Shown: positions 5,039 to 52,516 of the stretch, one piece after another
Layout: every line of letters starts with the position of its first letter
Numbering within the stretch: position 1 is the stretch's first letter
IMG/VR virus record: IMGVR_UViG_3300036790_000396
Location: 1-64,000 of that record
From: a virus
Direction: 5' to 3' (one strand)
Length of the DNA stretch: 64,000 nt
The notes under the pieces: generated by a model
Database searches by the model: none
Told to the model about the DNA's origin: nothing
The model's input: the letters and a program-made list of their open reading frames with translations, nothing else
Program-made: the position numbers and the translations under genes

Positions 5039-5040
5039 CA

Positions 5041-5130
5041 GTGCCCCCCGCTGCCGGGCCGGTCCAGAACGAGACCGCCGAGCTGCAGATCAGCAATCAC
5101 CCGGACAGGGCGCGCTACGCTGTGCTCATC
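5041..5130 (+). pseudogene. Truncated 5' end of a tail-completion gene, cut off by an HNH element
   Basis: From a GTG with a good ribosome site this frame encodes VPPAAGPVQNETAELQ, then ISNHPDRARYAVLI, and then runs into the HNH gene leader. The same sequence, diverged, restarts 670 bp downstream as MPPAFGALNNETAEM...LSKNPDR in the intact gene. The upstream copy keeps GC-rich codons and the original start; the downstream copy has AT-rich codons. The simplest reading is that the endonuclease element inserted just after the start of the gene and brought a replacement 5' end. Confidence 0.75.
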
Positions 5131-5190
5131 AGGATGCCCGGGCACCGCGCCAACGGCCCCGGGCTGGTCAGCCTGCCAGGAGGCTTCCCC
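5126..5190 (+). promoter_or_regulatory. Conserved leader of the HNH-AP2 gene, copy 1
   Basis: The 66 bases ending at the HNH start codon match the leader of the second HNH-AP2 gene (minus strand near 9252-9316) at all but four positions, more closely than the coding regions match. It holds two CCCGGG blocks 14 bases apart that can pair, a GGCTGGTCAGCC hairpin and AGGAGG seven bases before the ATG. It is also open in frame from an upstream ATG (MPGHRANGPGLVS). It could be a riboregulator of the endonuclease or part of the mobile unit. Confidence 0.6.
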
Positions 5191-5739
5191 ATGGCGCGAG
5201 CATACGTAGAGATCCCGCTGAACGGCAAGAAGGCTGCCGGGCGTGTGGCACTCGTGGACATCGACGACTACTCGAAGGTAATGCCTTACCGGTGGTTCTG
5301 TCGAGAAGAAATCAGCGAAGGAAAGCAGAATGTAGGGCCTTATGCTACTACTAATTTCTGGAAAGAAGGAAAACATCTTTCGTTTAGCATGCATAAGATC
5401 ATTACTGGATACCTGAAGACAGATCATCATGACGGAAACGGTCTTAACAACAGGAAGAATAATCTGCGTCCTGGATCTAAAGGGCGTAACGAGATGAACA
5501 AGCGTGCTCATAAAAATAGCACTTCATCTTATAAGGGAGTATCATGGCATCGAAGAGGAAGTAAGTGGACTGCTAACATAACTGTAGACTACAAGCTCAT
5601 TTACCTTGGATTGTTTTCTTATGAACTGGATGCAGCTCGCGCTTACGACAGAGCTGCATGCTCTCTATTTAAGGAATACGCTCTATTCAACTTTCCTGAG
5701 GAGCATCAGCATGCCGCCAGCGTTTGGTGCCCTAAATAA
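5191..5739 (+). CDS. HNH homing endonuclease with AP2 DNA-binding domain
   Basis: A 182-residue free-standing homing endonuclease. The N-terminal part (ARVALVDIDDY, WFCREE) and central HNH core (HKIITGYL, DHHDGNGLNNRKNNLRP, N at NEMNKR) form the nuclease; the C-terminal part (SSYKGVSWHRRGSKWTANI, YLGLFSYELDAARAYDRAA) is a clear AP2/ERF-type DNA-binding domain. AGGAGG fixes the ATG. The first 25 codons are GC-rich like the phage, the rest is AT-rich (20 G/C in the 60 bases 5341-5400), so the gene is a recent arrival. Its last codons overlap the start of the restored tail gene. Confidence 0.93.
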   Translation: MARAYVEIPLNGKKAAGRVALVDIDDYSKVMPYRWFCREEISEGKQNVGPYATTNFWKEGKHLSFSMHKIITGYLKTDHHDGNGLNNRKNNLRPGSKGRNEMNKRAHKNSTSSYKGVSWHRRGSKWTANITVDYKLIYLGLFSYELDAARAYDRAACSLFKEYALFNFPEEHQHAASVWCPK

Positions 5740-6424
5740 CGAGACTGCTGAAATGATTCTCAGCAAGAATCCAGATCGAATACTGATGATAGTTCCTAGG
5801 CTCAACCCAAATAGAGCCCGCAGGTGCGCAAATTCTGCCGCTAGTCTTACTCGGAAAATAATGCCAAAGCTTTCCGGGAGAGCTGCCAGTAGAATATTTC
5901 CTATTTACGGAAAAGGATACTTCGGAGTCGGGTGGCTAGACAGCTATGTTTACTTTCAGGAAAGAGGAATTTCCCCGTTCACCATGACGAAGCTCGCCGG
6001 CAAGACGATTCCCATGTGGGTCAATGACGAGTTCGGCACCGAGCGCCAGAAGAACCCGAAGGCGAAGACCCGCGTCACCCTGTCCGGCATTACGCAGGTG
6101 CTGATCTTCCGCAGGGCCGCGAACGTCGGCGAGACCAGGACGGTCCGCACGAAGGTCGCCGGCCAGTGGGTGACGCGCACCGTCCCGAAATCTTACCCCG
6201 GTGCTCCCGGCCGGATCTCCGCCCGCGAGGCCGGGCGCCCGCAGACGACGCCCGGCCGCCGTCCCGGCGCGATTGCCCCCGGCAACGTCGGGATCCGGTG
6301 GCGCCACCCCGGGCTCGCGCCGCGGCTGTTCATCAACCACGCCATTACTCTTGCTGCCCAGCAGAACGGCATTCTTCCCGTGCGCCTGTACGTCGCCAAC
6401 CGCGACTGGCGCCAGCATTTCTGA
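5711..6424 (+). CDS. Tail-completion/neck protein, restored after HNH insertion
   Basis: A 237-residue protein starting at ATG 5711 inside the end of the HNH gene. The first 80 codons are AT-rich, then usage switches to GC-rich near 5960, so the gene is a hybrid. Arg-rich segments and a Pro-rich stretch (RPQTTPGRRPGAIAPG) precede PRLFINHAITLAAQQ. The start is set by homology to the truncated copy upstream (NETAE, PDR). Position between neck and sheath genes fits a head-tail joining or tail-terminator function. No catalytic motif is visible. Confidence 0.7.
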   Translation: MPPAFGALNNETAEMILSKNPDRILMIVPRLNPNRARRCANSAASLTRKIMPKLSGRAASRIFPIYGKGYFGVGWLDSYVYFQERGISPFTMTKLAGKTIPMWVNDEFGTERQKNPKAKTRVTLSGITQVLIFRRAANVGETRTVRTKVAGQWVTRTVPKSYPGAPGRISAREAGRPQTTPGRRPGAIAPGNVGIRWRHPGLAPRLFINHAITLAAQQNGILPVRLYVANRDWRQHF

Positions 6425-6442
6425 CCTGGCCCCGGAAGCATC

Positions 6443-7114
6443 GTGACCCTTCCGACGCCGCCGCCGGTCCCGGGGTTCCTGCGGACTGTCAGGACCGGGA
6501 TCCGCGATGCCCTGGAGCAGTCGTTCGGCTACTCCTACCCCGAGCAGGACGCTAGCGGCGGCACGAAGAGATCGTTCGTCTCCCTGTCCTACCCGAGGAG
6601 GGAAGCCGACTACCCGGGCGTGTGGCTGGACTTCGAGGTCAGCCTGCTGCAGACCGTCGGCCTGGACCACACCGAGATCGACTCCTCCGGCAACGCCGTC
6701 ACCCGCTGGCGGTTCCAGGGCTATGCCACGTTCACCGTCGTGGCTCTCAATGACAACGAGTGCGACGCGATCTGGGACCAGCTCGTCGGCCTGACCGCGT
6801 TCGCGGCCCAGTCCGATTACCCCTCCGCGTTCCGCTCGGCGGTGGAGGGCAATCCCCTCGTCTCGCTGACGCTGGCCACCGACACCGTCGACATGCGCGG
6901 CAGCGGTGCCTCCCCCGGCACTCCCTGGGGCAGCGACGAGGTGATCTACGAGCGCGGCATGGGGCTGAAGGCGGTCGGGGAGTTCGTCACGGTCCCGCAG
7001 GCGCAGGCTCTCGTCCCGCTGAGCGAGATCATCGTCACCGGCCAGCCGTCCGACATCGCCGGCGACCCGGTCGGCAGTCCCTGGACCCTGACGATCGGCC
7101 CGGACAGCCCCTAG
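6443..7114 (+). CDS. Tail terminator/completion protein candidate, 223 aa
   Basis: The GTG at 6443 comes four bases after CCCCGGAAG, whose GGAAG probably serves as the ribosome site. The protein begins PVPGFLRTVRTGIRDALEQSFGYSYPEQ and continues with mixed alpha/beta segments (VWLDFEVSLLQTVG, RFQGYATFTVVALNDNECDAIWDQL). An N-terminal helix followed by a sheet is typical of tail-terminator and tail-completion proteins. It lies immediately upstream of the sheath gene, where such proteins are usually encoded. Assignment is by size and position, not by a recognised signature. Confidence 0.6.
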   Translation: MTLPTPPPVPGFLRTVRTGIRDALEQSFGYSYPEQDASGGTKRSFVSLSYPRREADYPGVWLDFEVSLLQTVGLDHTEIDSSGNAVTRWRFQGYATFTVVALNDNECDAIWDQLVGLTAFAAQSDYPSAFRSAVEGNPLVSLTLATDTVDMRGSGASPGTPWGSDEVIYERGMGLKAVGEFVTVPQAQALVPLSEIIVTGQPSDIAGDPVGSPWTLTIGPDSP

Positions 7115-30834: not shown

Positions 30835-32355
30835 ATGCGATCCCATTACCTTGCCCCGGCCCAGTCCCCGTCGGGAGCCATCCAGTCCGGGGCCGTCGTT
30901 TCGGTCTACCAGGAGGGCACCACGGACAACGGCGCCCAGGCGGGCACCCTCATCGCGGGCACCGTCTATGCCGACGCGACGTCGTCGAGCCAGCTCGGCA
31001 ACCCGTTCACTGCCTCGTCGGGCGAGATCAGCTTCTACCTCGACGCCCCGCTGCGCGTCGACCTGGGGATCAGCATCTCCGGGGCCGGGGCCGTTTACTA
31101 CCCTGACGTTGACGTGCTGACGCCCTCCGCCGCCGCCATCGACGCGGACGCCGGGGACATCCAGGCCCTCGGGTCCGCCGCCGTGGCGGGCGCCGTCGGC
31201 CTGGCCGCCGACGCGGGGCACGTTCACCCCTGGGACGGCCTTGGCCTCGCCGTCAACTCCCCGGCGTGGCTCAACGTCAGGGCCGCCCCCTACGGTGCCG
31301 CGGGCGACGGGGCCACCGATGACACGGCGGCCCTCCAGGGGGCCCTCACCGCCGCCGGGGCCGCTTCCCCTCCGGCGTCCGTCTACCTGCCGCCCGGGGT
31401 GTACGGCACGTCGGCCCCGCTCGTCGTCCCCTCCGGCGTTACCCTGCGGGGGGACAAGGGGAACGTCTACGACAGTGCTCACTACGGTGCCGTGATCTAC
31501 CCGCTGAGCACCTGGGGACAGGGGAGCGCCGCCCAGGAGGCGGTCATCATCCTCGGCGCGGGCACCGCGGCGGCCAGCGAGTGCGCGGTCCGCAGCCTCA
31601 GCATCGACACCACCGGCACGTCCGTCACCTGCGACGGCATCGACGGCAACGGCTCTGCTGACAACGTCCTCCTCGACGACGTCTACATCTACTACGCCAA
31701 TTCCGGCGTCAACCCGAAGGGCGGCAACACCTGGTACGGCAGCCGGGTGCACTGCTACCAGTGCTACATCGGGTTCGACGGCTGGGGCACCGACAGCAGC
31801 TGGACCGACTGCCTGGCGGAGGGATGCTCGGGTCCCGGGTGGACGACGACGAACGCGATCAACACCACCCTGACGGCATGCCGGTCAGAGTGGAGCGCCG
31901 GCAACGGCTTCACCGTCGCGGGCACCTCGGCAGCGACCGGCGGCGTCTCCCTCGTCGGCTGCTCCACCGACCGCAACGGCAGCAACGGCATCGAGGTCAG
32001 CTCCACCGGGACGTTCCCGGTGCTGATCAGCGGCTACCAGTCCCGCCGCGACGGGGCGTCGTCGTCCAGCGGCAACTACGCGGGCCTGCAGGTGGACGCG
32101 ACGTGCACGAGCCCCGTCATCGTCGACGGCATGACCTGCTTCCCCGGCTACAACGACCAGGGCACCGGCACCGAGTCACCCGAGTACGGGATCCGGGTGG
32201 TGTCCGGCGCGACGTTCGTGCAGGTGACTAACGCCTACCTGCACGCCATCACGGCAGGGGTGAACGGGACGATCACCTGCACCCGCGCGGTCGCGTCCCG
32301 TACAGGCCACTGGAACGCCTCCGGCGCGATCACGGTCGCCACGGACGCGTCCTGA
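30835..32355 (+). CDS. Tail spike with pectate-lyase-like beta helix, 506 aa
   Basis: GAGGAGA precedes ATG 30835. The N-terminal 135 residues match the gene before. From about residue 145 the sequence NVRAAPYGAAGDGATDDTAA is the standard opening of a Pectate_lyase_3 beta helix (D-G-x-x-D-D-T-x-A), followed by VYLPPGVYGTSAPLVVPSGV and a ladder of helix turns to the end, with Cys-rich stacking (CAVRSLSIDTTG, VHCYQCYIGFDGWG). It is probably a polysaccharide depolymerase or receptor-binding spike; a catalytic set cannot be chosen by eye. It is the last gene of the late block. Confidence 0.85.
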   Translation: MRSHYLAPAQSPSGAIQSGAVVSVYQEGTTDNGAQAGTLIAGTVYADATSSSQLGNPFTASSGEISFYLDAPLRVDLGISISGAGAVYYPDVDVLTPSAAAIDADAGDIQALGSAAVAGAVGLAADAGHVHPWDGLGLAVNSPAWLNVRAAPYGAAGDGATDDTAALQGALTAAGAASPPASVYLPPGVYGTSAPLVVPSGVTLRGDKGNVYDSAHYGAVIYPLSTWGQGSAAQEAVIILGAGTAAASECAVRSLSIDTTGTSVTCDGIDGNGSADNVLLDDVYIYYANSGVNPKGGNTWYGSRVHCYQCYIGFDGWGTDSSWTDCLAEGCSGPGWTTTNAINTTLTACRSEWSAGNGFTVAGTSAATGGVSLVGCSTDRNGSNGIEVSSTGTFPVLISGYQSRRDGASSSSGNYAGLQVDATCTSPVIVDGMTCFPGYNDQGTGTESPEYGIRVVSGATFVQVTNAYLHAITAGVNGTITCTRAVASRTGHWNASGAITVATDAS

Positions 32356-32359
32356 GATG

Positions 32360-32398
32360 CCGGGAGCCCGGAGAGGACCGTGCTCTCCGGGCTCCCGG
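32360..32398. terminator. 16-bp perfect hairpin between convergent operons
   Basis: CCGGGAGCCCGGAGAG pairs fully with CTCTCCGGGCTCCCGG around a seven-base loop. It separates the + strand late genes from the minus-strand helicase gene and should stop transcription both ways. Confidence 0.85.
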
Positions 32399-32406
32399 CC
32401 TGCACG

Positions 32407-34422
32407 CTACCTGCTGCGGCCGAGGAACTTCGCTGCCTCGCGGATGTCCGTCGTAGACCGCGCCGGGGGCAGCGCCCGCAGGATATCCCAGCCGTAGCTC
32501 TTGATGGACAGCCGCGGGTCCAGGATCGCGACGACGCCCCGGTCGGACTCGTGGCGCAGCAGGCGCCCCATCGCCTGCAGCAGCGGCCACGTCATCATCG
32601 GGATGGACAGCTGCCGGAAGGAATTGCCGCCCCGGCTCGTGACGGCCTCCTCGCGGGCCGCGAACTGCAGGTCGGAGGGGACCGGGAAGGGGAGCTTGTC
32701 GATGACCACGAGGCGGAGCGCGTCGCCGGGGATGTTGACTCCCTCGAAGAACGTCCGCAGCCCGAAGATGACCCCGTTGCCGCTGCGGCGGAACCGCTCC
32801 ACCAGGACCTGCGGTGCCGCGTCGCCCTGCTTCATGATGTCCAGGTCCATCTGCCCGAAGGTCATCTGCAGCGCGCCGTAGGCGGCGTCCATCGCCGAGC
32901 GGGAGGTGAACAGCAGGAGCGCGCCGCCGCCGGATTCCCGCACCAGCTCGGACATGGTGGCCTGCGCCCAGCCCTGCCACTCGTTCCGCGTGGATCCCGA
33001 GGGGACGGGGACGTCCGCCCTCGGGATGAACAGGAGCGCCTGGCTCCGGTAGTCGAACGGGCTGCCCGCGTCGAACGCGGTCATCCGGTCCGCGGGAATC
33101 CCGAACGTCCGCGCCGGGTAGGAGAAGTCGGGCTTCCCGGAATGGTCCTTGCCGGCCGCCAGGGTAGCGGACATCAGGATGACCGGGAATTCCTCGGACC
33201 ACACCCTGTCGCGCAGGAACGGGGCCGGGCTGACGGGGATGCTTGCCAGCATCACCTTGGAGTCGTGCTCCTCCACCCAGCGGACGGTGACGTCGTCCGG
33301 GTCGTCGAGGTAGGCGCGCAGCCGGGTGCGCAGGGAGGAGAGGCGGCGCACGATCCGGTCCTTGCGCCGCTGGACGTCCCGGTCAGCGTCGAAGCGCAGG
33401 GACAGCAGGACGTCGGTCACGGAGCCGGCGATGGCCTCGAAGCCGGGGCGCAGCATCGCGTCGCGCATTTCCTGCGGCAGCGGGAGCTGCCGGCTGTCGG
33501 CGCGGCGGCGCTGCTGTTCCTTCTGCCAGCGGGCGAACTCGGTCCCCACCGCCTCCCACAGCTTCTGCCCGTAGTAGCCGAGCCGGACGGCGGCCTCCGC
33601 GTCGGCGCCGTGCTGCATCAGCATCGCCTGCGCGTCGCCGGACAGGCGCGCGATCGTCCCGGCCGAGACCTGGTCCGACAGGGCGGAGCTGATCGCGCTG
33701 TCCAGGTTGTGGGCCTCGTCGAGGACCAGCTGGTCGATGCGGCCGAGCAGGTTCACGGCGCCCCCGGTCTCGGCTTTCAGCTTCAGGTCCGTCGCCAGGT
33801 ACGCGAGGTTGGTGATGATGATGTCGGACTGCGCGGCCTTCTCCTTGGCCTTCTCCACCATGCACTTGCCCTCCCGGCCGAAGGGGCAGTCCTTCGCGCC
33901 GGGGCACTCGCTGGAGGAGATCGACAGCTGGTACCACTCCCGGTCCTCGACCAGCGGGAGGGACTCCCGGCTCGCCACCTCGCCGTCGCTGAGGCCGTCC
34001 ACGACCGCGAGCAGCGCCCGCTGGGCCGCCGACGGGGCTGCCAGGTCCGCGATCCGGCTGGCGCACGGGTAGTTGCTGCGCCCCTTGATCTCGGCGTACG
34101 TGAAGTCCGCTCCGAGGTGCTGCGCCAGGAAGGGGAGATCGGACTCGATGTACTGGCGCTGCAGCATCTTGGTGGCCGTGGCGATGACGGTCTTGCGCCC
34201 GCTCAGGATCGCGGGGATCAGGGCGGCGAAGCTCTTGCCGATGCCGGTCCCGGCCTCGGCGAGGAGGATGCCGCCGCCGCCGAGAGTGTCCTCGATCGCG
34301 GCGGCGAGCGCCTGCTGGCGGGGGCGCACCTGGTAGGCATCCAGCGCCCCGGCGAGCTGCCGCTCGGCATCGGCGAAGGTGAGCATTTCCAGGAGGCTGT
34401 CTGCCGGGTCTGCCGTGTTCAT
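32407..34422 (-). CDS. DinG/XPD-family superfamily 2 helicase, 671 aa
   Basis: The start MNTADPADSLLEMLTFADAE is fixed by GGGAG four bases upstream. Motifs in order: QQALAAAIEDTL (Q region), AEAGTGIGKS (Walker A), an iron-sulphur cluster candidate (YPCAS, then DCPFGREGKC), IIITNLAYLA, LDEAHNLD (DEAH box), ALLLFTSRSAMDAAYGAL, and the C-terminal AMGRLLRHESDRGVVAILDPR (motif VI). This is the XPD/DinG arrangement with a 4Fe-4S domain, a 5'-3' DNA helicase that can unwind R-loops and forked DNA. It is divergent from the SNF2-type gene. Length is typical of bacterial DinG. Confidence 0.9.
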   Translation of the reverse strand: MNTADPADSLLEMLTFADAERQLAGALDAYQVRPRQQALAAAIEDTLGGGGILLAEAGTGIGKSFAALIPAILSGRKTVIATATKMLQRQYIESDLPFLAQHLGADFTYAEIKGRSNYPCASRIADLAAPSAAQRALLAVVDGLSDGEVASRESLPLVEDREWYQLSISSSECPGAKDCPFGREGKCMVEKAKEKAAQSDIIITNLAYLATDLKLKAETGGAVNLLGRIDQLVLDEAHNLDSAISSALSDQVSAGTIARLSGDAQAMLMQHGADAEAAVRLGYYGQKLWEAVGTEFARWQKEQQRRRADSRQLPLPQEMRDAMLRPGFEAIAGSVTDVLLSLRFDADRDVQRRKDRIVRRLSSLRTRLRAYLDDPDDVTVRWVEEHDSKVMLASIPVSPAPFLRDRVWSEEFPVILMSATLAAGKDHSGKPDFSYPARTFGIPADRMTAFDAGSPFDYRSQALLFIPRADVPVPSGSTRNEWQGWAQATMSELVRESGGGALLLFTSRSAMDAAYGALQMTFGQMDLDIMKQGDAAPQVLVERFRRSGNGVIFGLRTFFEGVNIPGDALRLVVIDKLPFPVPSDLQFAAREEAVTSRGGNSFRQLSIPMMTWPLLQAMGRLLRHESDRGVVAILDPRLSIKSYGWDILRALPPARSTTDIREAAKFLGRSR

Positions 34423-40660: not shown

Positions 40661-43150
40661 ATGACCGGCAAAGAAAACACCCCCGCGCCCCGTCCAGAGG
40701 GCGCGGGGGCAGTAAACCATTCCTCCGTCGAGCCCGACGATAGCATAATGCCAGCGGAAGTGTCAGCGGCCGAGGGGAATAATTTCCTCGCCGATGACTT
40801 CGTCGGCAACATCAGCCTCGATGACCTCGGCGGTTCCCCCGAGCGCCGCGCGGAGCTGCGAGAGGCGGCGGATCGCTACCGGCAGGCCGGGTACCGCATC
40901 ATCCCCGTGCACGACGTGGAAAGCGGCCGGTGCTCCTGCGGGGCCGCTGAAGGCGACTGCGCGGCCGGCAAGCACCCCGTCGAGCAGCAGTGGCAGAAGC
41001 CGAAAGAGGACCCGGCCTCTGACCTGCGGTGGTGGCGCGAGACCTCCGGCGAGAGCTATCCGCCGGATTCCCGCCCGGACGCGAATATCGGCATTCTCAC
41101 GGGAGAGCCCAGCGGGATCGTCGTCATCGATATCGATCCCGCTAACGGCGGCGATCTCCTGTGGGAAAGGCTGACCGCCCAGCACGGGGATATCCCTTCC
41201 ACCACTATTGCCCAGACCGGATCAGGAGGACGGCACTACCTCTTCCAGATGCCGTCTTTTCCCGTCCGCAACTGCAATCCCTGGGGCACCGGGATCGATG
41301 TCCGCGGCACCGGCGGCCAGGTCGTCGCCGCGCCGAGCATCTCGGGCAAGGGGCCGTACTCGGTCATCGACAGCTCGCCCCCGGCCCCGCTGCCCGAGTG
41401 GATCCGCGAGACGCTCGCCGCCTACCAGAAGGCCCAGCGCGGGGAGCCGTCCCCGCTCGCGCCCAAGGCAGCGCCGAACGGCATCCGGCGTGCCTACGGG
41501 CTGTCGGTCGTCGCGGCGCGGGCGAAGATGCTGAAGGAGACCGCGAAGGGCGGCCGGAACCAGGCCCTCAACGATGCCGCGTTCGCGTGCGGCCAGCTCG
41601 CGCCCGACCGGATCATCTCCGAGGCCGACGCCTGGGCGGCGCTGTCCGAGGCGGTGCTCGCGCCCGACTTCGGGATGGAGGAGGCCCGCCGCACGTTCCA
41701 CTCCGGCTGGTCCAGCGGCATGCTGCAGCCGTTTCATCCCCAGTGGACGGAGCGCGGCCATTTCGAGCCCCGCTCCTGGGACGATTTCGGGCTCGGCGAC
41801 CGGATGGGCGACCACTTCGGCGACATGCTCCGCTGGAACACCGACGTCGGGGTGTGGATGTTCTACCAGGCCGGGGTGTGGGTCAGCGAGGACGCGATGG
41901 CCGAGTGCCTCGCCCAGGCGATGATCGCCAGCCTCCCCGAGACCGAGGGCCCGGCCTACAGCAAGGACATCGACCCGAGCCAGGACGAGAAAGACTCGCC
42001 GCGGGACAGCTTCGAGGAGCAGTGCCGCAAGTGGCGCACGGCCGAGACGCCGGCCAAGGCAGTGAAGGTGGCCCGGCGCATGACGCTGATGGGGCTGCGC
42101 AAGTCCCATCTCGACATCGACCCTCTCGTGGTGAACCTCGCCAACGGCGCGTGGGACGCCCGGCGCCGTGCCTTCGCCGAGCACGCGCCCACCCAGTACC
42201 TGACGATGCAGTGCAGCTCCGTCTACGACCCGCACGCGGCGTGCCCGCAGTGGGATGCCTTCCTGGAGCGGGTGCAGCCCGACCCGGAGATGCGGGCGTA
42301 CCTGTACCGGATCTGGGGGTACTCGCTGACCGCGAGCCTGTCCGAGCAGGCGATGTTCCTGCACCACGGCTCCGGTGCCAACGGCAAGTCCGTCGCGAAC
42401 GACATCATCTCCCGGATCGCCGGGAGCTATGCCCAGATCGTGCCGGTGGAGACGCTGATCCTGTCCAGCAAGACCGGCCAGGTCCCGGTGGACATCGCCC
42501 GGATGGACGGGCGCCGCTACCTCGCCGCCAGCGAGACGAAGGCCGGCAAGCAGCTCAACGAGGCACTGATCAAGCAGCTCACCGGCGGCGACACCATCGC
42601 GGCCCGGTACCTGTACCGCGATTTCTTCGAGTTCAAGCCGACCGGCAAGATCCACCTGTTCTCCAACCACCTCGTGCACATCTCAGCCGACCCGGCGACC
42701 CACCGGCGGCTGCACCTGATCAAGTGGGGGGAATCCATCCCCGCAGCGGAGCAGGACAAGGATCTCGCGAAGAAAATCCTGGAGTCCGAGGGATCCGGCG
42801 TCCTCAACCGCCTCCTGGGCGGCCTCGCCGACTGGCTGGCCCTCGGTGATCTCGCGATGCCCGCCTGCGCGGTCGAGAGCAAGCAGGAGTACGTCCGCGA
42901 GGAGGACTGGCGCTACGCCTTCGTGGAGTCCTGCTGCGACGTCACAGAGCCCCAGGAGGGCGCTCCGGGCCGCAGCACCAGCGAGCTGTACGCCGTCTAC
43001 AAGATCTGGTACTCCCAGAACCAGCCGGGCAGCAAGCCCATGAGCATCAACGCCTTCTCGGCCAACCTCGCCGGAATGTATCCGCGGACGCGTATCGAGC
43101 GCTGGCGCGGATTCCCCACGCTGCAGGTGAAGCAGAATCCGGTTCAGTGA
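40661..43150 (+). CDS. Primase-helicase: Prim-Pol (AEP) domain plus SF3 helicase, 829 aa
   Basis: Residues 55-260 are a bifunctional primase/polymerase domain: YRQAGYRIIPVHDVESGRCS, NIGILTGEPSGIVVIDIDPA with the DxD metal pair, TGSGGRHYLFQM with the conserved His, and TGIDVRGTGGQVVAAPSI. A helical linker follows. Residues 360-560 contain the D5-type N-terminal domain; the SF3 helicase has Walker A in LHHGSGANGKSVANDII (about 566-582), then ARMDGRRYLAASETKAGKQL (Walker B region) and KPTGKIHLFSNHLV (sensor). It would prime and unwind at the origin. A strong hairpin lies in the first codons. GGAGG at 40646 supports the start; ATG 40749 is an alternative. Confidence 0.92.
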   Translation: MTGKENTPAPRPEGAGAVNHSSVEPDDSIMPAEVSAAEGNNFLADDFVGNISLDDLGGSPERRAELREAADRYRQAGYRIIPVHDVESGRCSCGAAEGDCAAGKHPVEQQWQKPKEDPASDLRWWRETSGESYPPDSRPDANIGILTGEPSGIVVIDIDPANGGDLLWERLTAQHGDIPSTTIAQTGSGGRHYLFQMPSFPVRNCNPWGTGIDVRGTGGQVVAAPSISGKGPYSVIDSSPPAPLPEWIRETLAAYQKAQRGEPSPLAPKAAPNGIRRAYGLSVVAARAKMLKETAKGGRNQALNDAAFACGQLAPDRIISEADAWAALSEAVLAPDFGMEEARRTFHSGWSSGMLQPFHPQWTERGHFEPRSWDDFGLGDRMGDHFGDMLRWNTDVGVWMFYQAGVWVSEDAMAECLAQAMIASLPETEGPAYSKDIDPSQDEKDSPRDSFEEQCRKWRTAETPAKAVKVARRMTLMGLRKSHLDIDPLVVNLANGAWDARRRAFAEHAPTQYLTMQCSSVYDPHAACPQWDAFLERVQPDPEMRAYLYRIWGYSLTASLSEQAMFLHHGSGANGKSVANDIISRIAGSYAQIVPVETLILSSKTGQVPVDIARMDGRRYLAASETKAGKQLNEALIKQLTGGDTIAARYLYRDFFEFKPTGKIHLFSNHLVHISADPATHRRLHLIKWGESIPAAEQDKDLAKKILESEGSGVLNRLLGGLADWLALGDLAMPACAVESKQEYVREEDWRYAFVESCCDVTEPQEGAPGRSTSELYAVYKIWYSQNQPGSKPMSINAFSANLAGMYPRTRIERWRGFPTLQVKQNPVQ
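40680..40709 (+). terminator. 11-bp hairpin within the first codons of the primase gene
   Basis: CCCCCGCGCCC pairs with GGGCGCGGGGG around an eight-base loop, 20 bases into the primase reading frame. It could end part of the transcripts of the upstream small gene, or limit primase translation. Confidence 0.55.
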
Positions 43151-43206
43151 CAATGAGTCACCGGGGGCATGTAGGGAAACGGACATTTCTTATCCCTCCC
43201 TCCCCC

Positions 43207-43568
43207 GGTGACGCACCCGGTGACGCACTTTAGTGACGCATCAAAGACAATTAATGATATGCCTGACCTGCAGTTATATGTTGGTGACGCAGGTGACGCA
43301 ACTTTTGGGAAACTACCCTGAGCGGCCATCGGCCGCTCTTTTTGATTACTTAGGGTAATATCATATCGAGCCAAAAGTTACCCGACAGTAGTGATAACAG
43401 CAACTAAGTCTAGAAGTAGCAATGGATACATCTGGCATCGCGCGTGCGTGCGCGAGAGAGTTTCCCAAAAGTTGCGTCACCTGCGTCACCTTCGACAAAA
43501 CTCCAGCTCAGACCCTACGAAATACCGACTCTGCTGCGTCACTCGGGTGCGTCACCGGGTGCGTCACC
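43207..43568. repeat. Ten-iteron symmetric palindromic region, candidate replication origin or control site
   Basis: GTGACGCA occurs at 43208, 43220, 43233, 43284 and 43293; its complement TGCGTCAC occurs with mirror spacing at 43473, 43482, 43535, 43548 and 43560. The outer arms (43207-43228 and 43547-43568) are a perfect 22-bp inverted repeat and the inner arms (43283-43313 and 43460-43490) a perfect 31-bp one that also includes TTTTGGGAAAC. All share one centre near 43387, in an AT-rich core. No gene is credible here. It lies directly after the primase-helicase gene. Iteron origin, partition site or repressor-binding switch are all possible. Confidence 0.85.
43320..43343 (+). terminator. 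Intrinsic terminator with U tract
   Basis: GAGCGGCC, ATC, GGCCGCTC, then five T: a textbook rho-independent terminator. It ends the primase transcript inside the inner arms of the symmetric iteron region. Confidence 0.88.
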
Positions 43569-43652
43569 TCTATGAATCTTCAACTTCATCTTCCGGCGTG
43601 GATACATTTTTCTTTACGCGTACGGAAAAGAAAAGGATGACGGAGAGAGAAG

Positions 43653-43736
43653 GTGCCCTCGGCTCCCGGTCTCCAGGTTCCGCGCTGCTGCGCCACCTGC
43701 GCCCGCCGGGTAGCCGCACGCGCGCTGGAAGGCTAG
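43653..43736 (+). CDS. Possible 27-residue Cys-rich protein
   Basis: GTG 43653 with GGAG six bases upstream gives a product starting VPSAPGLQVPRCCATCARRV and ending AARALEG. The C-C-x-x-C motif followed by Arg and Ala is like small zinc proteins of actinobacterial phages. It is the only frame here with a ribosome site. Its short length makes chance possible. Confidence 0.35.
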   Translation: MPSAPGLQVPRCCATCARRVAARALEG

Positions 43737-43746
43737 CTTTATTGAG

Positions 43747-44151
43747 ATGAGGCTCCCGCCGTACAATCCGCAGGATGTGTGCCCCAAGTGCAGTGCCGAG
43801 ATGCCTGACGTGACATGGCACCCGAGCCGCGTCGCCGGCAGCACCTTCCCCTGCGCGCGCGGCTGGCCCGCCGTTGCGCGCGAGCATCTGTGCCTGACGT
43901 GCCCGCGGTGCGATTACGGCTGGATGACTCTCACGGCAGACGCGGTTACGCTGCCTCAGGACGACGATGAAGGAGACGACATGCCGATCCGGAAGACCGG
44001 TGCCGCTGCCGACCAGCAGGTGACCGAAGTCAGCGAGGAGGAGCTGCCGCTGCAGTTCACCGCTTCCTCCCCCTCCTCCTCATCCCCCTGGTCCGCAGAG
44101 GACGAGGCCGGGCTGCAGGAGGAGAACCAGGAGGCGGACGGCGGCCGGTGA
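43747..44151 (+). CDS. Zinc-ribbon protein with acidic tail, 134 aa
   Basis: Starts MRLPPYNPQDVCPKCSAEMP; the second Cys pair is CLTCPRCDYGW, forming a typical zinc ribbon over residues 10-65. The rest is acidic and low-complexity (EVSEEELPLQF, Ser/Pro run, Glu-rich end). An in-frame ATG at 43981 with a strong GAAGGAG suggests the acidic part may also be made alone. No clear Shine-Dalgarno sequence precedes the first ATG. Possibly a nucleic-acid-binding adaptor. Confidence 0.6.
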   Translation: MRLPPYNPQDVCPKCSAEMPDVTWHPSRVAGSTFPCARGWPAVAREHLCLTCPRCDYGWMTLTADAVTLPQDDDEGDDMPIRKTGAAADQQVTEVSEEELPLQFTASSPSSSSPWSAEDEAGLQEENQEADGGR

Positions 44152-46269: not shown

Positions 46270-49200
46270 ATGGCTTTTGCACATATTCATACGCACAGTG
46301 AGTACTGTGTAGCACCTGAGACCAAGATAGCGCTTGCTTCTCTTTCATGGAAGAAAGCGAGTGACATAGAAGTAGGAGAAGAAATCGTTGGATTTGACGA
46401 AGATCTTCGCCCTCTGGAGGGAGAAAAAGGTAATAGTCGATCAAAGATGCGTCGAGCTGTAGTCACCGGAAAAAAATCTGTTTTCCGCGAATGCTGGCGC
46501 ATATCTCTGGAGGACGGAACTGAAATAGTAGCTTCCAGTCTCCATGGATGGATATCTAACGGAACTACCAAGGGCTCTCTCGTGCGCCCAGGCGGCCCCA
46601 AGGGCGGCTATGGTACCAATACGCGTCGCTGGGTAATGACTCAGGACCTTACTCCGGGCAAAAGCCGTCTTATCAAGTGGGCATCCCCATGGGGAGATCT
46701 TCCGTCGGATCTTGCTCATGACGCGGGCTGGCTAGCAGGAATCGCAGATGGAGAAGCATGGCTGAACGGAGGCCAGTTTTCTTTTGCCCAGAATCCTGGA
46801 GTCGTGCTTGATCGCATCAAGGCGACATGTGAAAAGCTGGGATACGGGATCACTGCTGATCGTGCGCAATGGTCTGCTTCTCCTACGGACTGCCGTACGT
46901 TCCGGCTGAACGGATACGAGACTGTCCTGCGCTTTCTTTCTCAGTGCCGTCCTTCCCGGTTCATTGGCCGGTCCGACGAGGTATGGGCTGGCCGGCGAGC
47001 GGGGAGCAGGAACACTCGCCCTGTGCTGGTTTCTTCTCTAGAATACATAGGAGAAGCCGAGACTATAGCACTGGAAACTTCCACTGGGACTCTGGTAGCA
47101 GAAGGATTTCTCAGCCATAACTCCCCGATGGACGGTCTTTCCCGCTGCCGGGAGATCGCGGCCCGCGCGGCAGCCGACGGCCATGCTCACACCGCGATCA
47201 CCGATCATGGTAATTGCTCAGGGCACCCCGACTTCCAGCGGGCCTGCGACGAGTACGGCATCTCCCCCGTGTTCGGCATGGAGGGGTACTTCATCGCCGA
47301 CCGGACGGAGCAGCCCGGCCCGGGCGACAAGGAGGCCCAGAAGCGGCGCCGCTCCTACGCCCACCTGATTCTCCTCGCCCGTGACAACGCCGGGCTCCGC
47401 AACCTCTACTCCCTGTCCAGCGAGGCGTACACCAGCGGCTTCTACGCGAAGCCGTGCCTGGACTGGGAGCTGCTGGAAAAGTACGGCGCGGGCCTCACCG
47501 CCACCACCGCGTGCTTGGGCGGCATCATCAGCAAGCCGCTCCTCGCCGGGGACTGGGACACCGCCGCCGCCACGCTGCGGCGCATGCGCGGCATCTTCGG
47601 CGAGAACTTCTACCTCGAAGTGCAGCCCAACCTGATCCCCGAGCAGCAGCGCCTGAACATGCTGCTGAAGGAGGTCTCCGCTTCCTCCGGAATCCCCCTC
47701 GCCGCCGCCTCCGACGCGCATTACCCGTCCCCTGCCGAGGAGTCATTGCACCGCACCTGGATGGCCTGCCAGACCGGTACCGGCAACGACGATTACTGGC
47801 AGATGGATCCCATGCACGACGAGGCAGTCGTCCGCGACCGCCTCTCGCGTGCCCTCGGCCCCGATGCCGCCCGGCAGGCATGCGATAACACCGTCCGCAT
47901 CGCGGAGCAGTGCACCGCCAGGATCGGCGGCGAGATCGTGCCCCCGGTGTTCTCGTCCTCCTACGAGGAGGACAGCCGCGCCCTGTACCAGCGGGCCAGT
48001 GACGCGCTTGCTGACCGCCATTCCGCCGGGCTGCTGGCCGGCGGCAGCCTGGACGACTACGCGCGCCGGCTCGGCGAGGAGTTCTGCCTCGTCCGCGACA
48101 AGCGGCTGTCCGGCTGCTACCTGATGGTGGAGGACATCACCACCTGGGCGCGGGGCGAGGGCATCCTCGTGGGTCCCGGCCGCGGATCGGCCGCCGGATC
48201 CCTCATGTCGTGGCTGCTGGACATTACCGTGTCCGACCCGATCGACGCGGGCCTGATGTTCTCCCGGTTCCTCACCCCGGGCCGCGTGAGCCTCCCCGAC
48301 TTCGACCTGGACTTCCCCAGCTCCCAGCGCGGGAAGATCCAGGACCGGGTCATCGGCAAGTACGGCGCGGACAGCGTGGTCCGCGTCGGCACCCACATGC
48401 GCTACCGCGCCAAGTCGGTCCTGGACAAGCTCGCCGGCGTCGCCGTCAGCCGCGGCGAGCTGCCCGCCGAGGCCAGGACCGACATGAAGGCCGTCAGCGC
48501 CCTGATCGAGGAAGCCGAGTCTCACACCGCCGGCCTGGGCCTGCCGTGGGATGACCTGATGAGCCAGCTCTCGGACGGGCTGGAGCCGTACGTGCAGAAG
48601 TACCCGGAGATCTTCTCCACCGCCGCCGTGCTCGTCGGGCGCGTCCGCGGGTACGGCACGCACCCCGCCGGCCTGGTCATCTCCACCGGCCAGCCGCTGG
48701 AGGGCACGCTCCCCATGCGGATCGCCTCCGCCCAGGACCGGACCGTCGTCTCCCAGTGGGACTTCCGGGACATGGAGGCCCAGGGGCTCCTCAAGCTCGA
48801 CTTCCTCACCCTCCGCACGCTGGACAGCATCCAGGAGGCCGTCCGGCTGATCGGGCAGCGCACCGGTCACCGCCCGGACCCCTCACGGTGGACTGCCGAG
48901 TACCGGGACCCGCAGGTGTGGGAGGAGATCGGCACCGGCCGCACCCTCGGCATGTTCCAGGTGGAGACGAGCCTGGGTGCCCGGTTCTGCGGGGACATGA
49001 AGCCCCGCAGCATCGCGGAGCTGGCCCACCTCGTCGCCCTCGTCCGCCCCGGCCCGCGCAACTCCGGGATGGACCAGGCGTACCTGCGCCGCCGCGCCGG
49101 GAAGGAGGAGGTGCAGTACCCCCACCCGGCACTGGAGGACCGGCTGCGCGGCCAGCAGGGCATCATGATCTTCCAGGAGGACATCCTCTACGCCTGCACC

Positions 49201-50484
49201 GAGCTGGCCGGCTACGACGGCGCCGAGGCCGACGGCGTCCGCAAGATCCTCGGCAAGAAACTCACCGCGAAGATCGCCGCCGCCGGGGAGGAGTTTGCCA
49301 GGCGCTGCGAGGAAAACGGACATATCTCCCGTAAAGAGGCAGAAGACATATGGGAGACAATGGCGACCTTCGGGAAATACGGTTTCAACGCAAGCCATGC
49401 TTTTTCCTATTCTGTTCTTGCATTCTGGACGGGATGGCTTAAATCGCATTATCCCGCCGAAACGCTGGCCGCGATCTGCACCACCCTGTCCGAGAAGGAG
49501 AAGGACCGTATCGGCCTGTACGTGAACGAGGCGCGCCGCCTGGGCATCGACGTGCGCCCCCCCGACGTGAACCACCACGCCCGCGGGTTCGCCGTCGAGT
49601 GGCCCCGCGACGGGGAGGAGTCCCGCCCCTCGGTCCGCTACGGGCTCGACGCCATCACCGGCGTCGGCGACAGCGCCCTGAAGGCCCTCGCCGCCGGCGC
49701 CCCGTTCGCGAGCTGGGACGCGGTCCGCGGCACCGTCAACTCCGGCGTGCTGCGCGCCCTCGTCACCGGGGGCGCCCTCGATGCCCTCGTGCCGTCCCGC
49801 CGTGCCCTCGCCGAGCACCTCGACGCCGACCGGGCCGGCGACCTCGTCCGCTGCGTCCACAAGGACGAGACCGTCTCCGGTCCCAACGGGCTGCCCTGTA
49901 CCTATGAGTGGGACAAGGAGCCGGTGATCGAGCGCCTCAGCGAGAGGACGGGCCGCAGGCTGCAGCCCCTGATCAAGCCCCCCCCGGCCCGCTGCACGCG
50001 CTCCTGCCGCCGTTACCAGCCCCCGGACCTGTCCGGCCTCGACGGATCCCTGTCCTACGCCCCGGACGTGCTGTGGCGCCTGGAGACGGGGCTGTTCGGC
50101 ACGTGGCTGTCCCCGGACGCCTTCACCGCGCTCGACGCCCGGCTGCCCGGTGCCTCCAGGCTGGGCGCCGAGCTGACCGACATGTGGGACGATCTCCCGG
50201 CCGGCATCTACCAGGTTCCCGCGGTCTTCCAGGGACTGCGCGAGACGGTCACGAAGGCCGGGAACACGATGGGCTGGCTCACTCTCGCTTCCGTGACAGG
50301 GATTATTGATATAAGCTGCTTCCGGCCGCGTGATCCCGGCGAACCCGACCTGCTTGCCGTCGCCGGGCGCATCCGGCCCGGTACCCCCGTCGCGGTCCTT
50401 GCCGAGCGGTCCCGGTACCGTACCTCCTCCGGCTGGCGCACGTCAGGCCGGCTGCGCGACATCAGGAGCATCAGTGCCCGCTAA
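46270..50484 (+). CDS. dnaE: DNA polymerase III alpha subunit with an intein in the PHP domain, 1404-aa precursor
   Basis: After removal of the 272-residue intein the polymerase has 1132 residues, normal for DnaE. The PHP domain begins AHIHTHSEY and resumes SPMDGLSRC after the intein. Polymerase motifs are VGPGRGSAAGSLMSWLLDIT (about residue 633) and LPDFDLDFPSSQRGK (about 675), the latter with the two catalytic Asp. EIGTGRTLGMFQVET, HPALEDRLRGQQGIMIFQED and KYGFNASHAFSYSVLAFWTG follow, then thumb and OB regions with FRPRDPGEPD near the end. It is the replicative polymerase. The first 12 codons and codons near 1015-1065 are AT-rich, unlike the rest. The stop overlaps the recombinase start. 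Confidence 0.95.
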   Translation: MAFAHIHTHSEYCVAPETKIALASLSWKKASDIEVGEEIVGFDEDLRPLEGEKGNSRSKMRRAVVTGKKSVFRECWRISLEDGTEIVASSLHGWISNGTTKGSLVRPGGPKGGYGTNTRRWVMTQDLTPGKSRLIKWASPWGDLPSDLAHDAGWLAGIADGEAWLNGGQFSFAQNPGVVLDRIKATCEKLGYGITADRAQWSASPTDCRTFRLNGYETVLRFLSQCRPSRFIGRSDEVWAGRRAGSRNTRPVLVSSLEYIGEAETIALETSTGTLVAEGFLSHNSPMDGLSRCREIAARAAADGHAHTAITDHGNCSGHPDFQRACDEYGISPVFGMEGYFIADRTEQPGPGDKEAQKRRRSYAHLILLARDNAGLRNLYSLSSEAYTSGFYAKPCLDWELLEKYGAGLTATTACLGGIISKPLLAGDWDTAAATLRRMRGIFGENFYLEVQPNLIPEQQRLNMLLKEVSASSGIPLAAASDAHYPSPAEESLHRTWMACQTGTGNDDYWQMDPMHDEAVVRDRLSRALGPDAARQACDNTVRIAEQCTARIGGEIVPPVFSSSYEEDSRALYQRASDALADRHSAGLLAGGSLDDYARRLGEEFCLVRDKRLSGCYLMVEDITTWARGEGILVGPGRGSAAGSLMSWLLDITVSDPIDAGLMFSRFLTPGRVSLPDFDLDFPSSQRGKIQDRVIGKYGADSVVRVGTHMRYRAKSVLDKLAGVAVSRGELPAEARTDMKAVSALIEEAESHTAGLGLPWDDLMSQLSDGLEPYVQKYPEIFSTAAVLVGRVRGYGTHPAGLVISTGQPLEGTLPMRIASAQDRTVVSQWDFRDMEAQGLLKLDFLTLRTLDSIQEAVRLIGQRTGHRPDPSRWTAEYRDPQVWEEIGTGRTLGMFQVETSLGARFCGDMKPRSIAELAHLVALVRPGPRNSGMDQAYLRRRAGKEEVQYPHPALEDRLRGQQGIMIFQEDILYACTELAGYDGAEADGVRKILGKKLTAKIAAAGEEFARRCEENGHISRKEAEDIWETMATFGKYGFNASHAFSYSVLAFWTGWLKSHYPAETLAAICTTLSEKEKDRIGLYVNEARRLGIDVRPPDVNHHARGFAVEWPRDGEESRPSVRYGLDAITGVGDSALKALAAGAPFASWDAVRGTVNSGVLRALVTGGALDALVPSRRALAEHLDADRAGDLVRCVHKDETVSGPNGLPCTYEWDKEPVIERLSERTGRRLQPLIKPPPARCTRSCRRYQPPDLSGLDGSLSYAPDVLWRLETGLFGTWLSPDAFTALDARLPGASRLGAELTDMWDDLPAGIYQVPAVFQGLRETVTKAGNTMGWLTLASVTGIIDISCFRPRDPGEPDLLAVAGRIRPGTPVAVLAERSRYRTSSGWRTSGRLRDIRSISAR
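46306..47121 (+). mobile_element. DnaE intein (class 1), 272 aa
   Basis: Begins Cys (CVAPETKIALASLSWKKASD), ends SHN with Ser as +1, all standard for class 1. Block B is ASSLHGW. One LAGLIDADG-like block remains (DAGWLAGIADGEAW); no second block is evident, so the endonuclease is probably degenerate. It splits SEY from SPMDGL in the metal-binding PHP motif. Codons are AT-rich throughout and this extends into the 36-base N-extein. Confidence 0.93.
49300..49465 (+). other. AT-rich codon patch at the cyanobacterial DnaE intein site
   Basis: Around KYGFNASHAFSYS the dnaE codons switch abruptly to AT-rich and back; 28 of 60 bases are G/C at 49381-49440 against 39 of 60 at 49141-49200. The middle of the patch, between Tyr and Gly, corresponds to the junction (AEY/CFNKSH) where cyanobacterial DnaE is split by an intein. 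No intein is present here. Confidence 0.5.
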
Positions 50485-52516
50485 GCCCAGGCAGACCCCC
50501 CTGGAGAAGTTCCAGGAGGAGACCGACAAGCGCTACTCGGCCCAGGTCAAGGCTCCCGACGCCACCGCCGCGCGCTATGACGTGATCAGCACGGGCGTGT
50601 GGTCCCTGGACCGGGCGCTCATTCACGGCGGCTGGATCCGCGGCCGGATCCACGAGCTGGTCGGCCCCCCGGACAGCGGGAAAGGCCATCCTCTCGGCAC
50701 GAGGATCATGACTCCCTCCGGATGGGAGAAGCTGGGCAATCTCCGTCCTGGAGATGAAGCATCAGGATCAGACGGGAAGCCCACCCGGATATCTGATGTT
50801 TACAAGCGCGGCGTGCTGCCGGTGTACCGGGTCACCTTTTCGGATGGGGCGTCCGTACGGTGCGACGGTGATCATCTGTGGCGCGTGCAGACTCCCAAGA
50901 TGAAGAACACTTCCGGTGGCTCCTACGTGAAGTCCGTCAGGGATATTGCTTCCGGGTCTCTGCTCACTTCTGACGGCAGGAAGAAATGGTGGATCCCGGT
51001 CTGCTCCCCGGTATGGCATCCTCAGTCAGAGCTTCCCGTAGATTCTTACCTGGCCGGAGTTCTCCTGGGAAACGGTGGCTTCACGAGCAGAGGCTCTCTC
51101 GCTCTGCACTGGGATGACAGGAACATAATAGAGAGGATCGAGAGGAGGACTGGCCTGCGCGCTTCTGAATATAACCCTACTACTGCTCTCCGCTTCTACT
51201 TCCCGGGGAGTCCGTCGATGATAAGGAAACTCGGGCAGGAAGGGTGCAAGAGCGCTGATAAATTCATTCCTGAAGAATATCTTCGCGCTTCTGAACAGGA
51301 CAGGCGAGATCTCCTTGCCGGCCTGATGGACACGGACGGATCAGTTGTTCCTATTTCTAGCAACTCCGCCGGAAACGCTAGCTTCAGCTCTACGAGCCGC
51401 GATCTGGCAGAAGGCGTAATAGAAATAGTAAGGTCTCTCGGAGGAATATCCAGGATATACGAGAATACCTACGGAGACAGGGAAAACATTCTCTACGAAG
51501 TGTCTGTTCTTCTCCCTGAATGCCCTTTCTACTCTCCCCGCAAGGCTGAGAAATGGACGCCTCCCAAGCGCGGGATATCACGGGCCATCACGTCCGTCGA
51601 GCTTGAGTCTGAAGAGGAGGTCTGGTGCATCCGGGTAGAAGCAGATGATTCCCTTTACATTACTGAGGATTACCTGGTCACGCATAACACCACTCTCATG
51701 ATCAGCACCGCCGTGCAGGCCCAGGCCCTGAAGGACGGCCGGGCCGGGTACGTCGACATGGAGGGCACCTTCGATGACTTCTGGGCCCAGCAGAACGGCC
51801 TGGACCTGTCCCGGGGCAAGTGGGAGCACCAGTACCCCATGGACAGCGAGGACGCCTCGGACATGGCCCGCAAGCTCACCGGCAGCGGCCTGTTCCCCCT
51901 CGTCATCGTCGACTCGGTCGGTGGCATGGAATCCCGCAAGGCCCTCGCCCGCGACGCTGCCGACGACCTGGTCGGGAAGAACGCCCAGGTCATCAGCCGG
52001 ATGGTCAAGCACCTCGCCGCGCTGGCCCGCGAGGCGAACACTGCCGTGATCCTCGTCAACCAGCCGCGCTCCGCGATCGGCTCCATGGGCGGCGACGTCT
52101 CCGCCGGCCCGAAGGCGATGCAGCATTCCACCACCACCCGCGTCCAGATGGCGCGCTCCGGCGGTGGCGAGGGCTACGTGCAGATGGTGCTGGAGGAGGG
52201 CGAGAAGCCGGAGACCGTCTCCCAGGAGTTCACGGCCCGCATCACCCGGTCCAAGGCGTTCCCGGTCTCGCGCCGGGCCACGTTCTGGGTCAACAGGATG
52301 GACACCGGCGAGTACGGGCCCGCGGGCATCAACCACGTCCACGACTATGCCGAGACGGGCATCAAGGCGAAGGTGATCACCCAGTCGGGCTCGTTCTACA
52401 CGCTGCCCGGCGGCGGCAAGGTACAGGGGCGCAAGGCGGTCACCGAGCGCCTGCGCGACGACGAGAAAGAGCGCGCCCTGGTGCGCAGGCTGATCCTGGA
52501 GGCATCCAAGCTGTGA
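50474..52516 (+). CDS. recA: RecA-like recombinase with an intein in Walker A, 680-aa precursor
   Basis: GTG 50474 follows AGGAG and overlaps the dnaE stop; the longer open frame is a dnaE shadow. Extein 1 ends VGPPDSGK and extein 2 starts TTLMISTA, so splicing restores GPPDSGKTT. AGYVDMEGTFDDFWAQQNGL, PLVIVDSVGGMESRKAL (Walker B), then VILVNQPRSAIGSMGG (loop L1 area) follow, and the L2 region GPKAMQHSTTTRVQMARSG is typical of RecA. The mature protein has 345 residues. It would promote strand exchange; together with the three nucleases downstream it forms a recombination cluster. Confidence 0.93.
   Translation: MPAKPRQTPLEKFQEETDKRYSAQVKAPDATAARYDVISTGVWSLDRALIHGGWIRGRIHELVGPPDSGKGHPLGTRIMTPSGWEKLGNLRPGDEASGSDGKPTRISDVYKRGVLPVYRVTFSDGASVRCDGDHLWRVQTPKMKNTSGGSYVKSVRDIASGSLLTSDGRKKWWIPVCSPVWHPQSELPVDSYLAGVLLGNGGFTSRGSLALHWDDRNIIERIERRTGLRASEYNPTTALRFYFPGSPSMIRKLGQEGCKSADKFIPEEYLRASEQDRRDLLAGLMDTDGSVVPISSNSAGNASFSSTSRDLAEGVIEIVRSLGGISRIYENTYGDRENILYEVSVLLPECPFYSPRKAEKWTPPKRGISRAITSVELESEEEVWCIRVEADDSLYITEDYLVTHNTTLMISTAVQAQALKDGRAGYVDMEGTFDDFWAQQNGLDLSRGKWEHQYPMDSEDASDMARKLTGSGLFPLVIVDSVGGMESRKALARDAADDLVGKNAQVISRMVKHLAALAREANTAVILVNQPRSAIGSMGGDVSAGPKAMQHSTTTRVQMARSGGGEGYVQMVLEEGEKPETVSQEFTARITRSKAFPVSRRATFWVNRMDTGEYGPAGINHVHDYAETGIKAKVITQSGSFYTLPGGGKVQGRKAVTERLRDDEKERALVRRLILEASKL
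50684..51688 (+). mobile_element. RecA intein of class 3 (WCT triad), 335 aa
   Basis: The first residue is Gly (GHPLGTRIMTPSGWEKLGNL), not Cys or Ser. Trp is present in block B (CDGDHLW), Cys in block F (EEVWCIRVEADD) and Thr is +1 after VTHN: the Trp-Cys-Thr signature of class 3 inteins, which splice through the block F Cys. Two LAGLIDADG blocks remain (DSYLAGVLLGNGG and DLLAGLMDTDG), so the endonuclease may be active. Codons are mildly AT-rich. Confidence 0.93.

Follow-up and report, generated by a model that had tools for sequence, protein, structure and literature searches.

Ten exact copies of the word GTGACGCA, five forward and then five reverse, occupy positions 43208-43567 of the 64,000-nucleotide window analyzed here (the whole stretch of viral DNA under study, positions 1 to 64,000 of IMG/VR record IMGVR_UViG_3300036790_000396). 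We consider it very likely that this array is a phage replication origin, located directly 3' of the gene of its own initiator, a PrimPol-D5_N-SF3 primase-helicase, and used through the mechanism proposed below. The kind of origin is known, in that it works like the origins of PICI/SaPI elements, and the phage itself is not a PICI. The features of the locus are as follows.

40661..43150, plus strand: gene for the PrimPol-D5_N-SF3 helicase (P4-family primase), presumed initiator, 829 aa; Pfam Prim-Pol 1.6e-34 and D5_N 1.1e-14, NCBIfam TIGR01613 8.7e-65
42908..43129, plus strand: C-terminal winged-helix-like domain of the initiator (residues ~750-823), presumed iteron-binding, from an AlphaFold model and a Foldseek match
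43207..43246, plus strand: left outer arm, three forward GTGACGCA at 43208, 43220, and 43233; its first 22 bp pair perfectly with the right arm
43283..43314, plus strand: left inner arm, two forward iterons at 43284 and 43293 (spacing 9) plus AACTTTTGGGAAACT; 32-bp perfect inverted repeat with 43459-43490
43320..43346, plus strand: intrinsic terminator (hairpin 43320-43338 and a T tail), 8-bp stem, 3-nt loop, T5; z = -5.0
43338..43425, unstranded: AT-richest stretch of the core, candidate melting region, down to 27% GC in 30 bp
43439..43454, unstranded: alternating purine/pyrimidine tract CGCGCGTGCGTGCGCG, the sole such run of at least 16 in the 64 kb and common to related origins
43459..43490, minus strand: right inner arm, two reverse iterons at 43473-43480 and 43482-43489
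43529..43568, minus strand: right outer arm, three reverse iterons at 43535-43542, 43548-43555, and 43560-43567

The array is intergenic and begins 57 bp past the initiator stop codon. A preliminary description had placed ten iterons, five each way, at 43207-43568, next to a Prim-Pol/SF3 primase-helicase and around one common centre, and all of this was confirmed. The start and end positions of partner copies sum to 86775 for the three outer pairs and to 86773 for the two inner pairs; the two tiers, centred at 43386.5 and 43387.5, therefore share one centre at ~43387 within 1 bp. Copies are spaced by 12, 13, 51, and 9 on the left and by 9, 53, 13, and 12 on the right, so that the mirror spacing given earlier holds for the left arm and fails at one right-arm gap (53, not 51). 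The outer arms (43207-43228 and 43547-43568) form the perfect 22-bp inverted repeat previously reported, and the perfect inner repeat is 32 bp long rather than 31 bp. Matching between the arms extends past the iterons, to 15 bp of the inner arm and to the spacers. The word does not occur elsewhere in the window, of which shuffled versions (n = 100) contained a mean of 2.9 copies and never ten. A search of the whole 146,944-bp record, as the preliminary description had advised, found five additional single copies, about the number expected by chance, and no scatter of copies at gene starts. Directly past the primase stop, TGAGTCAC at 43154-43161 equals the reverse word with one mismatch and, with 43202-43215 at the first iteron, makes up a 14-bp inverted repeat (93%); it is possibly a degenerate eleventh iteron.

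The core between the inner arms (43315-43458) has 49% GC, compared with 68% for the window, which places it in the lowest 2.4% of 144-bp windows. The AT-rich core of the preliminary description is thus AT-rich in relative terms, and it includes the 16-bp, GC-rich alternating tract CGCGCGTGCGTGCGCG, which had been overlooked. The terminator, formerly assigned to the centre, is located 58 bp to the left of it; the primase transcript probably stops there, within the array, and most of the core would thereby be spared rightward transcription. No RNA family was matched in a search of Rfam.

The initiator gene gave the only D5_N match in the whole record. An AlphaFold model of its residues 359-829 (mean pLDDT, 84.5) comprises an AAA+ helicase and, C-terminal to it, a helix-helix-helix-strand-strand unit (model residues 392-465), and Foldseek matched this helicase/winged-helix half to AsfvPrimPol, to poxvirus D5/E5, and to the SaPI5 primase-helicase (7ola; TM score of 0.66 by query and 0.71 by target). 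Genes for a 5'-3' exonuclease and an SNF2-type helicase lie upstream of the initiator gene, and three small-to-medium genes without family matches lie downstream of the array, followed by genes for a DnaE-like polymerase (2.7 kb downstream) and a RecA-like protein. With its 146,944 bp and its structural, DnaE, and RecA genes, the record does not represent a small helper-dependent satellite, and the comparison with PICIs made below concerns its origin module only. The DnaE-like polymerase (46270-50484) is interrupted by an intein-like sequence at residues ~11-284, and the RecA-like protein (50330-52516) is likewise interrupted, its residues ~300-390 matching intein-bearing families.

This arrangement resembles the PICI/SaPI origins (SaPI1, SaPIbov1, SaPI5, and EcCICFT073), which are found immediately 3' of the initiator gene, have two iteron sets around an AT-rich core (a likeness in the presence of two flanking sets), and are served by an SF3-type initiator with a C-terminal DNA-binding domain (PMC6092414, PMC7581432); the fold predicted here matches that of the SaPI5 primase-helicase. 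SaPI Rep uses its C-terminal domain to bind iterons just downstream of its own gene, and two hexamers are apparently involved (PMC7581432). The PICI paper states that PICI origins always consist of two iteron sets flanking an AT-rich region and that no other known bacterial replicon has this organization (PMC6092414). The earlier generalization that iterons normally run one way is wrong for this class of origin, given the two iteron sets of PICIs (PMC6092414) and the mirror arrays behind most of the SF3 primase genes that we collected without regard to the DNA word. In contrast to a PICI, which is a 15-kb satellite, the window belongs to a 147-kb phage record with its own DnaE- and RecA-like proteins, and its ten iterons are arranged in two nested tiers with an alternating tract and a terminator inside. 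It also differs from Rep_3-type plasmid origins, whose iterons are one-directional, whereas the window has five each way. The origin of phage P4 (ori/crr) comprises two separate sites, and its words differ from those of the window. The P4 alpha protein is likewise a primase-SF3 helicase initiator that binds short repeats via a winged helix, but it has a primase of the Toprim type found in bacteria (PMC4234260).

In the mechanism that we propose, the C-terminal winged-helix domain of the PrimPol-D5_N-SF3 protein would recognize GTGACGCA. The words of both arms point inward, and two helicase assemblies (probably hexamers) would accordingly be loaded facing opposite ways, one on each arm; after melting the intervening AT-rich core, they would depart in opposite directions. 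The PrimPol domain would then lay the first primers, and the DnaE-like polymerase of the phage, together with host factors, would extend them. The inner 2+2 tier of the window has 9-bp spacing and corresponds to the minimal module found in the relatives described below, and the outer 3+3 tier is extra; as an added set, it may raise affinity or control firing. Among the three roles suggested in the preliminary description (a bidirectional origin served by the Prim-Pol/SF3 protein, a partition site, or a repressor switch), the origin is the best supported, as the array lies 3' of the sole D5_N gene and is kept in kin, and we regard its bidirectionality as probable.

To find relatives by protein, we used an SF3 alignment scan that is blind to the DNA word, which yielded 79 further loci, or 44 after removal of near-duplicates. 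In 35 of the 44 loci, inverted arms past the stop codon scored higher than the 99th percentile of contig-matched control windows (Mann-Whitney P value = 4e-19), and strictly defined arrays of 2+2 exact words were present in 16 of them, compared with 1 of 2,200 dinucleotide shuffles and 5 of 974 control windows. The iteron words vary among these loci (GTGACGGAT, CTGACGCAG, CTGACAGAT, GTGCCAGAT, GTGGCGGGT, CTTCTGAAG, and others), and the same version of the word is always found on both arms. Outer iterons match outer ones and inner iterons match inner ones (92%, compared with 82% crosswise). An alternating purine/pyrimidine run of at least 16 follows the stop codon in 38 of the 44 loci and in 5 of 1,516 control windows. 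In the set of loci L129 to L207, the gene directly behind the array starts with a conserved LALDLGTTTGWAL-like stretch and represents a linked family.

The variation in words allowed a comparison with the initiators themselves, made on 28 non-redundant loci of a single protein-selected clade. Iteron word distance was correlated with the distance between C-terminal domains when helicase distance was held (partial Mantel = 0.24, permutation P value = 0.005), and the converse test, with helicase distance and the C-terminal domain held, gave -0.02. This association, which is modest and confined to one clade, points to the C-terminal domain of the initiator as the part that reads the iteron word.

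Relatives were also sought by word, by scanning viral contigs for the pair GTGACGCA-N1-8-GTGACGCA, which retrieved at least 120 stretches; clusters of at least three words were present in ~50 of the matches listed, many with opposed orientation. An HMM grown from the SF3 domain of the window recognized an SF3 primase gene in 20 of the 120 word-selected matches listed. In nearly all of these 20, the words lie within ~100 bp of the 3' end of the SF3 gene, often with reverse copies next, past a core of ~50 to 190 bp. Because this set was chosen by word, the commonness of the word cannot be read from it; proximity to the 3' end of the SF3 gene was not a selection criterion. In the more-distant word-selected loci, the alternating run is reduced in length or consists of TA steps, and one family lacks it, indicating that the tract is common and not universal. 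A DNA-level search for the array region in named phages returned nothing, a DNA search with the array alone gave chance matches only, and single-protein scans of viral contigs with the primase and with the flap exonuclease found no relatives.

The three contigs closest by DnaE (L215 and L234, 58% identity; L235, 51% identity) all have arrays at the equivalent place, two of them full mirrors and one reduced, so that the array is kept in relatives, a point that the preliminary description had left to comparison. L215 has GTCCCCA in a 3+3 arrangement at the contig end, and its primase gene is therefore missing from the contig. L234 has CCACGGCA in a 4+4 arrangement over 290 bp, with arms that are 85% complementary and unequally spaced, and L235 has GGGGCGC in a 3+1 arrangement and keeps a D5_N/SF3 initiator (43.5% identity). 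Because these words are unrelated and yet stand at the same place, the layout survives full replacement of the word and, in L234, even replacement of the helicase. The L234 gene at 4100-6841 encodes a PrimPol fused to an unrelated P-loop helicase half (no D5_N match and a weak ABC_tran match only); it is a natural helicase swap with the mirror array kept and is reminiscent of the two SaPI Rep types.

These relatives also bear on a structural alternative, in which the inverted arms extrude a cruciform or hairpin that the initiator recognizes or primes on, the words being secondary. Such an origin was proposed for the crenarchaeal plasmid pRN1, which has a PrimPol-SF3-winged helix protein and an essential 100-bp inverted-repeat element located 54 bp past the replication gene, with a terminator nearby, and for which two rings and bidirectional forks were proposed (PMC4234260). 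The perfect pairing of the inner arms over 32 bp, 15 bp of which are not iteron, is what a stem would give, and the single-strand fold (z = -10.9), the outer-to-outer and inner-to-inner agreement among relatives, and the essential role of the pRN1 stem-loop (PMC4234260) favor the same reading. The pRN1 element is described as one 100-bp stem-loop without iterons and with a much shorter loop. In the window, however, both arms are built from one word repeated in tandem, for which a stem has no need, and enclose a loop of 144 bp, which is unfavorable for extrusion. The imperfect arms of L234 and the 3+1 array of L235 further indicate that the stem is not conserved, whereas the words are, and the SaPI5-Rep-like protein Cch2 needs direct repeats and not inverted ones (PMC7581432). 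We therefore find a structural origin unlikely and prefer an origin recognized through its iterons.

Less probable still is a transcriptional switch in which the array would provide the operators for a repressor or for one of the small neighboring proteins. The array is intergenic and palindromic, with a terminator inside and no other copies at genes, all of which would suit such a switch, but no sigma-70-like promoter was detected in 43000-43900 (other promoter types were outside the scan), and the word co-varies with the C-terminal domain of the initiator. In addition, the place of the element behind the initiator gene is fixed across unrelated phages, irrespective of which gene lies downstream. 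The least credible alternative is that the array acts in partition, as a centromere-like site, or in recombination or inversion. Either function could be performed by clustered binding words and long inverted repeats, but a search of the 147-kb record for the ParB/ParA genes that a ParABS centromere requires gave no match to ParB_N or AAA_31, no recombinase gene is present among the annotated neighbors, and the position of the array is tied to the initiator.

Several observations nevertheless count against an iteron-based origin. GC skew over the 147-kb record has no switch at 43.4 kb, where the preliminary description had suggested looking for a change, a result that is neutral to mildly negative. 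The matching of the arms beyond the iterons is more than binding alone need give, the array of L235 is reduced to 3+1, the Mantel result comes from 28 sequences of one clade, and roughly half of the named phages described next have no clear array.

We sampled 19 named phages with such primases and applied an exact 7-mer test for opposed arrays. Clear opposed arrays were found behind the primase gene in A2, PSA, B025, DSP2, and Mae-JY02, all five of them mirrors, and also in DismalFunk (6+2) and ZoeJ (mixed order), with a weak one (6+1) in CrimD. About ten of the 19 had no clear array by this test, so that the rule does not apply to all such phages. A stem-loop has been proposed for BPP-1; no clear mirror iterons were found there by the same test, and BPP-1 therefore does not count as an example. 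In Lactobacillus phage A2 (AJ251789), a rep_origin is annotated at 32208-32717, directly past the primase gene; within it, four forward copies of ACGGGAG precede an AT-rich core, and three copies in reverse come next. A2 thus shares with the window the order of forward iterons, AT-rich core, and reverse iterons, as well as a related primase (32% identity in the helicase part), whereas its word, its 4+3 arrangement, and its irregular spacing differ, and the aligned part has no PrimPol match.

Taken together, these patterns incline us to the view that mirror-iteron origins are not a PICI speciality and form a common class in tailed phages with PrimPol/D5-type SF3 initiators, lying just 3' of the initiator gene, with an alternating tract in the core, and evolving by joint replacement of the word, on both arms at once, and the C-terminal domain; the two-tier array of the window would be an enlarged version. 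The literature found does not describe the two-tier size, the alternating tract, the breadth among phages, or the occurrence in a large phage that encodes its own polymerase; a prior description elsewhere is possible, as most subscription journals were outside the search. Within that same scope, we found no literature about the origin of A2 or about Z-DNA-like tracts at phage origins, and none on point for phage iterons next to SF3 primases. A full-text search for the literal word GTGACGCA returned aptamer and primer papers only among the matches listed.

If this view is correct, many PrimPol/SF3 phage origins could be located in a sequence by looking behind the primase gene for pairs of opposed words, and the pairs of initiator and word would constitute a natural library for how a winged-helix domain chooses its DNA word. 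The origin layout of PICI-like satellites would then also be that of phages in general, against the published statement that it is found in no other replicon (PMC6092414), and a re-reading would be offered of the "stem-loop" origins proposed for PrimPol-SF3 replicons.

The word-selected stretches contain further arrangements. In nine loci (L107, L033, L046, L061, L077, L086, L111, L118, and L027), outer GTGACGCA pairs overlap the primase stop codon, and this L107-type family has a second, inner inverted repeat, GTTGAGATGACGCAC ... GTGCGTCATCTCAAC, representing another two-tier origin, without the alternating tract. Six other stretches (L014, L015, L034, L079, L100, and L123) have at least five clustered GTGACGCA copies, some of them one-directional, and no recognized SF3 gene in the stretch, suggesting that initiators other than SF3 proteins may use this word too.
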